From: Utricularia gibba
Taxonomy: Eukaryota; Streptophyta; Magnoliopsida; Lamiales; Lentibulariaceae
Length of the DNA: 64,000 nt
NCBI GenBank assembly: GCA_002189035.1
Contig: CM007992.1
Location: 2,294,001-2,358,000, forward strand
Direction: 5' to 3'
Below, one piece after another: positions 22,977-64,000 of this stretch. The notes below the pieces were generated by a model. That model was not told the DNA's origin. It ran no database searches and saw only the letters and a program-made list of their open reading frames with translations. Position 1 is the stretch's first letter. Every line of letters begins with the position of its first letter. Position numbers and translations under genes: made by a program.

Positions 22977-23260
22977 TGGAGCGGGGCGCCCAGAAACAAG
23001 ATCTCTGAAGCTTGAGCAGGAGAGGGGGGTTGGGGTTGGTAAAAATAGGGGATGGGGTATCCGTCGCGTCGGTTAAAATTGAAAAAAATTGATTTGTGGG
23101 TAATGAGGAGATGGGGGGGGAGGAGAAGAGTAGCATAGAGTAGAGACTACCTGTCTATCCCCTTCGTCGCTAGCGTTGTTTCTTCTCTGTCATCGCTGCT
23201 AAAGAGAAAATGATCGGGAAATTGGGGAAAATGTTTGACTCCGGTGGGCAAGATTTCGAC
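22977..23260 (-). promoter_or_regulatory. 5' UTR and core promoter region of the MYB-CC gene
   Basis: On the minus strand a candidate non-coding exon ends GATAGACAG just before GTAGTC at about 23154, and a possible acceptor (GCTTCAG) lies at about 23008, so the leader may contain an intron. A C/G homopolymer and CT-rich DNA occur at about 23110-23125. No sure TATA box. Confidence 0.4.
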
Positions 23261-39779: not shown

Positions 39780-41140
39780 ATAGGATCTTGATGGTTATAC
39801 AACCATAACTTTGGGAATGATGGAGCAAATGGATATGCACAATTTAAAGGCATAGATTATAAAGAATGTTATGCCCTAGTTGCAAAGATGGTAACTATCC
39901 ATATTGTATCAACATTGATAGTTAAATTAAATCTTCTTGTTTATCAAGTCAATCTGGACAACCCATTTCTTCATGATCATTTAGATGATGAAGCTTAAAT
40001 GGAGCCCCTAGAGGCATATACAAAAGCAAAGAAGAGCAAAGTATGCTTGCTTCCTAAATCCATATACGGTCTTAAACAAGTATCAAGTGTTGGAATTTGG
40101 AATTGACAAAGATCCTCATTTCTTTTGGTTATATACAATCGAGTGCTGAGTCACACTTGTTTTTGAAGATAAGTGATGATTATTTGAGTTTGATTATTGT
40201 GTATGTGGATGATATGCTTATTGTCGGTAATGCATTGTCTAAGATCCAAGCGACTAAGGACTTTTTACATGATAAATTTACTATAAATAACTTGGGAGTC
40301 ATTAGATGCTTTCTTGGTGTTGAAATTTCTAGATCATCTACTAGAATTCTTTTATCTCAAAAGAAGTATATCGAAACTTTATTGTCCGACTTTGGAAGAA
40401 ATCTATCCACAGAGATAGCTACACCAATGACTAAGGGACTACAATTTCTATTGGACAATGGGAATCCATTGCATGAATTGGATTGGTATTGTAAAGTGAT
40501 TGGACAACCATATTGGATATCACCTTCTATGTGCAACAATTGACTTGATTTATTCAATGACCAACTATTAATCATTGAGCTGCAGTAAACAGAGTATTGA
40601 GATATTTGAAGCACACTGAAGATCATGGACTATTTTACACATGCTCAGGAACTACGTAGCTACAGGCATTCTATGACGCATATTGGGAAATTGCCTTGAA
40701 ACTTATCGTTCAATTACAAGATTTTACATATTTTTGAGATATAATTTGATCAATTAGAGAGAAAAAAAAGAGGAAATTGTATCTACTTCTTTAATTGAGG
40801 CGGAGTAAAGGGCAATGAGATTAACCACAATGGAGTTGTTGTGAATTACATATCTCATGAAATATATATGATACTCATTTCTCTACCCATTATCTTCTAG
40901 ATTGACAGTCAGTAGGCATTGCACATTACTCAAAATGCCGCCTTTCTTGAATGTACAAAACATCTTGATATAGACTGTCATATGGTGAGGAATCACTATC
41001 TTGCCGAATTTATATCTCTTATGCATGTAGCTACTAGTTCATAGGTTACAAATATCTTTACAAAGGCTTTGGGGACACAAGCATTCCTCTTCTTTTGAAA
41101 CAAACATGGACTTGTTAGATTCACAATCATCTTGTTTAAG
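39780..41140 (+). pseudogene. Copia reverse transcriptase / RNase H remnant
   Basis: The plus strand reads YKECYALVAKMVTIHIV (RT start), KSIYGLKQVSS at about 40055, then a 148-codon open frame (40097-40543) with the catalytic box IVYVDDMLIVGN, NLGVIRCFLGVEISRSS and SQKKYIETLLSDFG. RNase H fragments follow: SQ-ALHITQNAAF, CTKHLDIDCHMVRNHYLAEFI and VTNIFTKALGTQAF (to about 41090). YVDD is intact, but flanking frameshifts and stops make it non-coding. It faces away from the minus-strand integrase fragment at 39063-39725. Confidence 0.9.
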
Positions 41141-46568: not shown

Positions 46569-48074
46569 TTAATCTCCCGTCACTGGGGATATTTTCACCT
46601 TCATTCCATTCTTCATCACGAGAACGACGGAGGAGCTCGGCTGAACACGCCACTCATCTCTAAGCACGCGTATCTTGAAACGGCTGATGACGGAGGCGGC
46701 TACGATCTTCGTCTGAATGAAAGAAATGTCTCTACCAATGCAAGTTCTGGGGCCAGCGTTGAAAGCTGGAAACTTGAAAGAGGGAACGCTCAGGATCGTT
46801 CCGGTATCGGAAATCCATCTCTCCGGCTTGAATTCCTGGAAGTCTTCCCCCAGATGGATTGCATTCTTCCCATAGAGAAGAATGAAATCAGTATCTTAGT
46901 GTTCGCCTTCACGTGGTGCCCCGACGGAAGTGTGTCGGAGTTAACCGGCGCTTTGTGGTTTAGCGCTATCGGAGGAAACAGGCGAAGTGTCTCGCAGAGA
47001 GCTGCGTGGAGATAAACTAGATTTCTTATGCTTTCTATGCCGGAGAATCTCCATTTTCCGCTGGGGGAATCCTTAGCTATTTCCCGCCGGATTTTCTCTT
47101 CCTTTTCTGGGTTCTGGTCGATGAGCCAGAAGAGCCACGAGAGAGCAGTGCTGATCGTATCCTTTCCGGCGAACAGAAAACTTAGAGTGGCGTCTCTCCA
47201 AACCTGAGAAGATATTTTGACCGCTTCGTGATTCTGAGCAACGGCTCTTACGTAGCACGCGAACATATCGTGGTCTTCTTCGTCTTCATCAGTCCTGTGT
47301 ATGGTCTTTTCTTCCTTCAGGAGGATGCACTTCTCTATAAACCTGTGAATAAGTTCAATCCCTTCCGTCAGCTTCCTTTCAGTGCCGATATGCAGACGCT
47401 TCTGGAGGGTCCACACTACCTCCGGGACCACGTGTCTCCTCAGAGCTGCCTCCTCCGCGTCTTTGAACGCGCTCAGCTCCGGGAAGTCGCGCAGATCGCT
47501 GCACAGTGACTTGGGGTCGTGGCCTAAAACCATGAGGACCGTACAGTCGAACGCCAGCCTTTGGAATACCTCCTGTAAGTCGAGGCTCCGGCGGTTGGAT
47601 TCTAGGACCTTAATCAGGCCGGACTCCACCTTCCGCCACGTGGTCGTGGCTACAAAGTGCTGGAAACTGAGGTTCGCCATGAAGAACTTGGCCGCTTTCC
47701 TCTGACTCTCCCATGACTCGCCCTCCGCAGCGAATATCCCTTCCCCAGCTCTTGGAAAATCTTCTTGAACTGGGGCCTTTCCCGAAGTTGGTGAAGTTCT
47801 TGGTGAGGATGTAGTTGACGTTGTCGGGATCCGCCGTCACGATCATATGCATGTTGGGGAACCAGCCGCCTTTGAAGTAGGCGGTGCCTCCAGATTCCTC
47901 GACTAGCTCCGTCAGGAAGTTATGGATGCGGTGGGCGTTAAACAGGATTCCTGGCAACATACCGAACACCGGCCAATCGGACGCCACCCGGCTGCTGCCG
48001 AGGAATCCTTTAAAGGGTTTGAATGCGAGGAGGAGGAAGAGGAGCAGGAAAGCAATGACTTCTTGGTACGGCAT
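46569..48074 (-). pseudogene. CYP96A-like cytochrome P450 with three single-base deletions
   Basis: An intronless minus-strand gene starts MPYQEVIAFLLLFLLLAF (membrane anchor), then DWPVFGMLPG and RIHNFLTEL, typical of CYP96 fatty-chain/alkane hydroxylases. The I-helix is FLFAGKDTISTALSW (family A-[AG]-x-D-T-[TS]), the K-helix CETLRLFPP, then FKPERW and the haem loop FNAGPRTCIGRD; the end is VKISPVTGD. Three frameshifts interrupt it, near 47775 (before FKKIFQEL), 47745 (before IFAAEGESW) and 46870 (before EDFQEFKPERW). Each fits loss of one base from a C or G run. The span is 1506 bases; three more would give exactly 503 codons with no other stop. It is thus either a very young pseudogene or a functional gene with assembly errors. 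CYP96A15 makes cuticular secondary alcohols; the role here is inferred. A TATA-like ATTAAATA lies about 45 bases upstream. Confidence 0.9.
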
Positions 48075-49789: not shown

Positions 49790-52450
49790 CCTATTTATCC
49801 ACTTCTTCATTATCCTCATCATTTGTTGTCAAGTTTTGTAACTTTTGTTCAATTTGCAACCAATCCTTTAAGGATACACAAGCCTCCAAAGTTTTTGGTA
49901 CAAAACACGATCTTTTTACTGTAAGAACTCATCCACTAGCATTGAAAGCACTCTCAGAAGCAACCGTTGAAGTTGGAGGTGTGAGAATATCCTTGGAAAC
50001 CTATGACAAAATCGGATAATGAAAGGACTGATTTTTCTACCAATCAAGTACATCAAAATTTATCCCCCTTGTTGTCATGTAGTTGATGCATTTCATTATA
50101 CAATGCAATCCGACTGGCTCTTGTTCTCATGCTAGAAGAAGCATAAACTTGCACCATAGACTAGTAATCATTTGTGGTTGAAACCACAACATTGTCATTC
50201 TTAACCTTTGATTGACCAAATTTCACAACATCTCCATTAAGATCATAAAACTCATATAAGTGATATAAAGTTGAAAGAGCAGTTTCATGCATATTTTTAG
50301 CACTCAAATTCACACCAACCATGTTAAGAGAATTATAAAAGGGGAAAAATACATTTTGATGCTAACGTTTCAAAGATTGCTTATAATTAGATGCACACGT
50401 TTTCGAAAATAGTTTTGTGATACAAATGTTTCTGTTTTTATTCAAATTCAGTACAAACGTTTCAAAATATATCATTTTGGTACAAACGTTAAATATTATA
50501 TTATTTTTCAAATATCAACATTTTTTAAAACATTGTTTAAATACATACGTTATTTAAAAAAGTTAAAAAACAATACAAACGTTTTTTCACACATACTTTT
50601 TGATACCAAAGTTAAATCAATACGATTCTACATCTGTACAATAAATTTATGATTCAAATAAGAATGATATAAGAAGATGAATCTAAAATTACTATCAATA
50701 AAACTCAGAATCTGAGAACACCGACTCAGAGTCAAGAGGGTGATGAGCTACTAAACAAGGAAGATCGTGATGGGTCAAGAGGGCGACGGGTCAACAATAA
50801 GGGTGGCTTGTGGTAGATCGTGATGGCTAACAAAAATCAGAGGATTTCATCATGGTGGCTAACAATAATTGTAACCCTAATTACATTGCATTTCTCAATT
50901 TGGGAATGAGCCATCTAAATATATGTACTGAAATAAAAGCCTATTAATAAATGTTTGTTCTCATAATGCAGGTGTTAAAAGGTATGTTTTTATTTAAAAG
51001 ATTAAATTATAAACGTACGTACCAAAATTTTTTTTCAAAAAATGTTGGTATTGAAGATATATTATTTTTCAAAACATTAGTTTCAAAATAAAAATTTTGA
51101 AAACATTCGTATGTAAAATCTATAAAATTAGATAATGTATGTATCAAAAATCACATTATACAAACGTTAGTATAGAATTATATGTTTTTTGTAAAACATT
51201 TGTATTGAAACAAAACGTAGCCCAATTATAAAATGCACAATAAACATTCGAACCAGCAAGTAAACCTAATCCTTTAACTCGAGGATCAATCATGTTCTCT
51301 ACTAGCAACAATGAAGGAATAGGATCATAATATTTCAAAAATTTTGGAATCATTTTTTGAATAATACAATCAAAAAAATCATCATTATAATATTCTTCAA
51401 ATAACAAAGTAATACTAATCAAAGCTGGGAGTACCAAGTGAATAGTAGGATAATGCACACCACTAAATAACAATGTATAATGATTGAAAATAGAAAGGAA
51501 ATCAACAAAAACCTCAAATTTATCAAAATCAGCATCAACTTTCAGTCTAAGTCATCATGCATAGCTATAAATGTTTCAATAACTTGTCTATATGGAAAAA
51601 AAATATCGAAGCATATCAAAAGTAGAATTCCATCTAATGGGTAAATCATGTTTTAAAGTTTTAAATGGAATATTATTAACTTCACACAAACGTTTAAAAG
51701 CTGTTTTTTTAACACTAGAAATTTTTAACACATTAACTAACTTGTGCACAGAACTAAGTAAAGTATTAATTTCAGGAATTTGCAAAGCATCTTGAACACA
51801 AATTTAGAATGTGACATGCACATGTAAAATGAAATAAAGCACCAACCAACATAGGATTTGTGGAAGTTTTCGGACATTTGATAGCACTCCAACTATTAGA
51901 TGCATTATCAAGAGTAATAGAGAAAATACGATCAAGTATAGCATATTCATGACATATATCAGTAATTAAAACAACAATACGTGCACCAATATGAGGATGA
52001 TCGCAAGGTCAAAACCCAAGGATTCTCTTCTCAATGACCCAATCAGAATTAATCCCAACTATCAATTGTCAAACAAAACTTGCATTTAATTGATTGAGAT
52101 AGAGAAATCAAAAGTGCTTTTCGCTCATGGAATTATTCTAAACAAATTCTAACAACCTTTCTTCTAGAAAAAGGAACAAATTGAGGCTGCATTCTATTTG
52201 TAAAAAAATTCATAATAAATGGATTATCAACTTCTGAAAAAGGTTTTTCACAAGCAATTAAAGCAAGTACATAATCAACTTGAGCCATATTTAAGTCAAA
52301 TGTAAATTTGGAACTAATACAACCATCAACAACATGCAATTTTAATTGTCTATGATTTGAAGTATCTCGATCAGAATGTTTGTTCTTAATATGACGTAAA
52401 AAATTGAAAGCAACACCACTTTTACCATGCTAATACGAAATTGAACAATA
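49790..52450 (-). pseudogene. hAT transposase remnant, copy 1
   Basis: Minus-strand order: the end of a BED-type zinc finger (GKSGVAFNFLRHIKNKH at about 52430-52380), LHVVDGCISSKFTFDLNMAQ and CKFCLTIDSWD-F. Then VKKTAFKRLCEVNNIPFKTL and LPIRWNSTFDMLRYF at about 51600, the VLPALISITLLFEEYY and MIDPRVKGLGLLAG blocks at 51430-51260, and the dimerisation region with ASESAFSA-like and LEACVSLKDWLQIEQK at 49980-49840. Stops and frameshifts occur throughout, and an 883-bp element (50341-51223) is nested in it. The related copy at 62737-64000 is better preserved. Confidence 0.85.
50341..51223. mobile_element. MULE-type MITE nested in the hAT remnant
   Basis: An 883-bp non-coding insertion starts GGGGAAAAATACATTTTGAT and ends ...CAAAACGTAGCCC, with a perfect 10-bp direct repeat AATTATAAAA on both sides (50331-50340, 51224-51233). 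9-10-bp duplications are characteristic of Mutator-like elements. Both ends carry inverted arrays of ACAAACGTTT-type words spaced 30-45 bases. Removing the insert and one duplication restores a continuous hAT reading (CAFYN followed by SLNMVGVNLSAKNM), confirming the boundaries. Confidence 0.85.
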
Positions 52451-62736: not shown

Positions 62737-64000
62737 TTAATCAATTTCAGAACTCCTTGAGGTGTCGTCATTATCATCCCATTTATCTATCATGATATTT
62801 TGTAATCTCAAATCAACAGCTACCCAATCCTTAAAGTAGACGCACACTTCCAATGTGCTATCTGCCAAGCTCTCATGGTGAGGAGTTAGGATGCAGCCAC
62901 CTAAACCGAATGCACTCTTACTATCAACAGTGGAAGCTAGTGGTATAAAAACAGCTTTTGCTACTATAGCCAATGTAGGATAAGTAGACATTTGACTCTT
63001 CCACCATACCAATATATACAATTCATCTTTTTTAGACTTTTCCTGGTGGATTGCATTATATAATGCAACTTCACTACCTTTTGAAAGAGTACTTTGAGAA
63101 GCAGACACCATGACATAGAAGTCCTTTGACCCACTAGGCAAATCATTAGCCTCAATATTTGGAAGTCTAAGAGAAATAACATAATCCCAATACATTTTTA
63201 AACCTGCTTGCAAACTAGAAGCCTTCACCCTCGGATCAAGAATGCTAGACACAAGATATAAAATAGGAATATTTCTAAAATATTTTGCAAATTTTTCAAC
63301 TATAGTACAAACAACTTTTGTAAGAAATCTTGTATCAAAACATTTTTTAAAAGCTCTAGAGATACACTAAAGTATGAAACACTAAATGAGTAGTAGTATA
63401 GTATGATCCACTAAGCAAATACGTAAATTTTTCAAAGGTAGATAACAAATCACATAAACATTCACGTTTAGTAAAAATAATAGAATCTAGCTCAATCATA
63501 GGATCAATATGCATCAATATGAAAGATGGAATAATATGGTTGTCAAGTAACATAGAATTAATCATGCAAAGTATAGAATTCCACCTAGTTGAGCAATCAC
63601 CTTTAAAAGTTCTATATGGAATATCTAGAGCTTCACAAACTTGCTTAAACATAGCTCTCTTAGGACTACATTTTTTCATCAACTTAACTAACTTTCTAAA
63701 GGTCCAATAAACATGACTAAAATCATCTAACATAAAAGCATCTTGGACACATAAATTCAATATATGGCAAGCACAAGGAGAATGAAGAAAAGAACCTTGT
63801 TGAATGGGATTCATTGCTGTTTTCAATGCTGAAATTGCAGAAGAATTGTTAGAAGTATTACCAGGAGTTGAAAAAATATGATCAGCAATACGATATTCCA
63901 TACAAATTTTTGCAATTAACTCAGCAATCCTAGCACCTGAATGAGGAGTATCAAAGTGTCTAAAATCCAAAATTCTTTTTTGCATAAGCCACTTATCATC
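62737..64000 (-). pseudogene. hAT transposase, copy 2, truncated by the window end
   Basis: Two long minus-strand frames hold most of the C-terminal half. 63985-63356 has RILDFRHFDTPHSGARIAEL, the SNNSSAI segment, FLHSPCACHILNLCVQDAF, a STRWNSILCMI block (family: PTRWNSTYxML), YRTFKGD and a C-terminal helix. 63252-62737 has ILDPRVKASSLQAGL (family: LDPRYK), LVWWKSQMSTYPTLAIVAK (family: LxWWKxNxxxYPxLSxxAR), ASTVDSKSAFGLGGCIL (family: ASESAFSxGGRVL), VCVYFKDWVAVDL and an acidic end. The frames are separated by one frameshift/stop zone at 63253-63355, so it is only slightly decayed. The N-terminal zinc finger would lie beyond 64000. Confidence 0.88.

Follow-up and report, generated by a model that had tools for sequence, protein, structure and literature searches.

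The P450 gene of the window

The main feature at the locus under study, in a window of 64,000 nucleotides (the whole stretch of DNA that was analyzed), is a cytochrome P450 gene whose reading frame is shifted three times (Table 1). The gene spans 1506 bases, which the addition of three bases turns into 503 codons, including the stop. The first frame leads from the ATG up to shift 1, the long middle frame corresponds to an ORF of 348 amino acids (46790-47836), and the third frame is the ORF at 46569-46895, which terminates at the natural stop. The middle ORF matches the Pfam p450 family with E 1.9e-29 and the last ORF with E 2.8e-12, and the two pieces reach 103 and 46.6 bits, above the curated cut-off of 22.8 for PF00067. 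In a frame-shift-aware alignment with the intact paralog L003 as the reference, the window gene shows exactly three -1 steps, and no in-frame stop is found in the composite frame (46569-48074). The I-helix, ExxR, PERW, and haem-Cys motifs are all there; thus neither of the pseudogene hallmarks looked for in the window P450, in-frame stops and motif loss, was observed. The original prediction, that the frame shifts three times in an otherwise complete gene and that three added bases give 503 codons with all P450 motifs and no other stop, is borne out by the sequence with its ORFs, by the Pfam matches, and by the alignment to L003.

Table 1. Coordinates of the P450 gene, its frame shifts, and its motifs in the window.
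Feature	Position	Strand	Remark
Intronless cytochrome P450 gene, putative CYP86-clan, CYP96-like by resemblance	46569..48074	minus	ATG to TAA; three one-base shortfalls
Shift 1, KGPxFKKIF motif, C4 run	47772..47775	minus	One base short in the run or at the adjoining base
Shift 2, G4 run	47743..47746	minus	One base short relative to the LGEGIF motif of relatives
Shift 3, W-G-x-D motif, G5 run	46847..46851	minus	One base short
I-helix motif AGKDT	47156..47170	minus	Intact, from sequence
ExxR motif (ETLR)	46982..46993	minus	Intact, from sequence
PERW motif	46815..46826	minus	Intact, from sequence
Haem-binding motif FNAGPRTCIG	46734..46763	minus	Intact, from sequence

Elsewhere in the window, the ORF at 40076-40543 resembles, by eye, a fragment of a Copia-type reverse transcriptase, and the ORFs at 51156-51803 and 62737-63366 resemble, also by eye, fragments of hAT transposases.

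The three frame shifts

Two of the shifts lie where they had been expected (near 47775 and 47745), but the third, expected near 46870, belongs to a G run about 20 bases away. The proposal that each shift is repaired by one base added to a C or G run fits shifts 2 and 3, in agreement with the motifs of the relatives, and in part shift 1, for which a neighboring G is possible. At the latter site most relatives have Glu, whereas reading the missing base as part of the C run gives Gln, and therefore the missing base may be either a C of the run or the neighboring G; the placement score is slightly better for the plain G (91) than for the C run (88). Shift 2 was placed in the GGGG run, and not in the GGG after it, because the relatives read L-G-E-G-I-F. 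Judging from these comparisons, the exact missing base at the shift sites is not fixed by homologs alone. Automatic homolog-based placement of the missing base was tried and abandoned, as it often results in ties among neighboring placements, and the placement method based on a homolog panel gives no answer for two shifts close together. G/C runs of at least five account for 1.4% of the bases of the window P450.

Paralogs and the W-G-x-D motif

The closest relatives of the window P450 are found on contig C413 (L002, L003, and L004, with 71, 64, and 58% identity, respectively), and in the P450 tree the window gene groups with these three, apart from the other P450s. They form a cluster of paralogs at C413:1807697-1830189, two of the three being frame-broken in the assembly. 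L003 is intact; in L002, L004, L005, and L008 the frame is broken by the lack of single bases at G/C runs. Three shifts are present also in L008, and a further shift in L005, located in a run of two, is less certain.

The W-G-x-D motif is written with five Gs in the window gene (L001), L002, and L008, in which the frame needs one letter more, and probably the same shortfall, in a shorter run, affects L005. All 15 paralogs with four Gs or fewer at the motif are intact there, and L014 retains six Gs. For run length against breakage at this motif, Fisher's test gives p 0.004 without L005 and 0.001 with it. A pattern search with one spelling of the six-G form of the motif returned no match. On a tree of 13 P450s, the well-supported branches imply at least three independent origins of the break.

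Shifts of several paralogs at one conserved motif would be expected from programmed frameshifting or transcriptional slippage at G/C runs, by which the protein would be restored from a truly shifted gene. However, the paralogs with the shorter-run spelling of W-G-x-D need no shift, breaks affect unrelated motifs and families as well, and a single mRNA would have to go through three such steps, which makes this the least probable of the explanations considered here. It is also highly improbable that the shorter runs are real and that several P450 paralogs carry true W-G-x-D losses, tolerated through slippage in expression or silenced in parallel.

Pairwise dN/dS between the window gene and L002, L003, and L004 is 0.20, 0.17, and 0.18, respectively, and among L002-L004 it ranges within 0.13-0.19; hence relaxed selection, with dN/dS moving towards 1, was not seen for the window P450 in the comparisons with these paralogs. 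The values rule out an old decay of the gene, though not a very recent loss. If the break were shared by the window gene and L002, a dS of about 1.2 would have accumulated since, with no stop and with dN/dS of about 0.2, unlike a dead gene. In a real, very recent pseudogene, three single bases would truly have been lost, too short a time ago for stops or relaxed substitution to appear, and the tandem paralog cluster on C413 could provide the redundancy for it; the dN/dS, which is that of a constrained gene, argues against such a loss.

Frame breaks across the assembly

The surveyed genome, to which the window belongs, is plant-like and comprises 100 Mb in 516 contigs, from which 50 loci (20 P450 and 30 GRAS, 85 kb) were analyzed by frame-shift-aware alignment. 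The frame is broken in 12 of the 50 loci (24%), namely in 6/20 P450 and 6/30 GRAS loci, and none of the 50 has an in-frame stop. A base is missing in every one of the 19 scored shifts, and the surveyed coding sequence yielded no scored base gain; the scoring left out plus-one calls and the shifts scattered over N-terminal or intron regions that align weakly (including L041). By an assignment made partly by hand, for which homologs often allow several placements, 15 of these shifts fall in G/C runs of 5-7, and runs of 4 and of 2 account for two each. The estimated loss rises with the true length of the G/C run, as expected for an artefact, from 0.5% for runs of 4 to 10% for runs of 5, 33% for runs of 6, and 2/2 for runs of 7. 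In the case of A/T runs of 5-7, none of the 176 in the survey was scored as lost.

When one-base deletions were simulated at random, 8/392 (2.0%) were compatible with a G/C run of at least five in the comparison with a single homolog and 1/200 (0.5%) in that with the homolog panel, while for the real shifts the proportions are 9/15 and 6/9.

Among the GRAS genes, the three with a DELLA-like N-terminal motif (L047 on C375, L048 on C142, and L049 on C2) break at a conserved P-G-G-P-P run, and the PAT1-like gene L046 breaks at the same run. Similar breaks were judged by eye for L058 (GRAS) and L057 (KCS). The DELLA losses (L047, L048, and L049) that would appear in gene lists drawn from this assembly are probably false.

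A genome-wide cliff in the length of G runs was considered as well and set aside. In a 302 kb sample there are 38 G/C runs of 6 and one of 7, and in the whole genome 14854 of 6, 2706 of 7, and 214 of 8; the cliff is suggestive at most, because the whole-genome counts fall more smoothly than those in the sample. One of the 214 exact eight-G runs of the genome (both strands) is the G8 run at 23112-23121 of the window.

Loci assembled twice

Several loci are present twice in the assembly. The GRAS pair L032 (C316) and L033 (C412) differs over 4.1 kb by one substitution and 10 deletions, all ten in L032; one of them (G4 to G3) breaks the frame, which is unbroken in L033. The P450 pair L006/L007, from the wider clade of the window gene, shows two substitutions along with two changes of run length, of which one is a G5 to G4 within the coding sequence. 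Contig C376 (29.6 kb; L051-L053) near-copies a part of C413 (5379104-5408943; L054-L056) and is probably its haplotig, inflating the gene counts. Over about 25 kb the two show 6 substitutions and 24 gap bases, and of the 16 one-base indels in the first 14 kb, 11 are losses on the side of the small contig and 5 on that of the large one. As losses are found on the large contig as well, primary contigs are affected too. Substitutions normally outnumber indels between real haplotypes, and between these twice-assembled loci run length disagrees more than substitutions do.

A mutator lineage with real slippage, meaning that G/C runs lose bases in the plant itself, would account for the genome-wide G/C bias. 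Against it, long A/T runs are untouched and base gains were not scored in the surveyed coding sequence, and the ten indels against one substitution in L032/L033, with the losses all in the short C316, fit better with an uneven quality of the consensus. We consider such a lineage scarcely credible, if slightly more probable than programmed frameshifting.

Discussion

The collapse of G/C runs is a property of this assembly, and the homologs, the run lengths, and the rates suggest that the three sites in the window are cases of it. At each of three G/C runs the sequencing consensus would have called one base too few, breaking the frame in the assembly only. In all likelihood, then, the window holds an ordinary and complete P450 gene whose frame is broken by assembly error alone. 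The reading of the shifts as homopolymer errors, which the original prediction had offered next to very recent inactivation, is strongly supported by the occurrence of the same fault across the genome, as seen in the broken loci of the survey, the run-length rates, and the twice-assembled loci.

If the window gene is left out when the rates are fitted, its expected number of losses is 0.58, the probability being 48% for at least one loss and about 1% for at least three. The window P450 is thus an extreme case, and three losses suit a gene chosen for looking striking; a genome of thousands of genes will contain many triple-loss cases. The three shifts exceed the fitted expectation, which would also be consistent with recent inactivation. 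Nevertheless, all three are missing-base shifts in or beside G/C runs, and the fault is common to unrelated genes and to one of two near-identical copies; very recent inactivation is therefore disfavored, and we regard a real pseudogene as very unlikely.

Under the preferred reading of an assembly error, the window gene itself is ordinary, and a false break at G/C runs probably affects about a quarter of the P450 and GRAS genes that were tested in this assembly. Until accurate reads have been used to polish the assembly, claims of gene loss, pseudogenes, or gene counts based on it are unsafe.

In respect to function, the window gene is like the plant P450s of the CYP86 clan and CYP96 in its P450 family, its motifs, and its lack of introns, the name CYP96 being given by resemblance. 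Among solved structures, the nearest are carotenoid hydroxylase P450s of plants, which are only distantly related. From the family alone, the enzyme presumably oxidizes a lipid-like or specialized substrate in the endoplasmic reticulum. CYP96A15 is a midchain alkane hydroxylase, with wax alcohols and ketones as its products. CYP96T1 of Narcissus is noroxomaritidine synthase, a phenol-coupling enzyme of the Amaryllidaceae alkaloids (PMC4766306). Because one of these enzymes makes wax products and the other alkaloids, a cuticle-lipid role for the window P450 would be a guess, one option of several.

False pseudogenes caused by long-read homopolymer errors have been described before (PMC7500977; PMC8011154; PMC12007338, Kastor), with one-base indels concentrated in homopolymers, as here. 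Systematic nanopore errors lead to such false pseudogenes (PMC8011154, Homopolish), and in an ONT-only fungal assembly (Drechmeria) about one fifth of the single-exon genes were wrong after long-read polishing, mostly at homopolymers (PMC7500977). That proportion can be set beside the 24% of loci broken here. The fungal errors after polishing were mostly over-long runs, whereas the coding errors scored in the present assembly are losses only, almost all of them in G/C runs.
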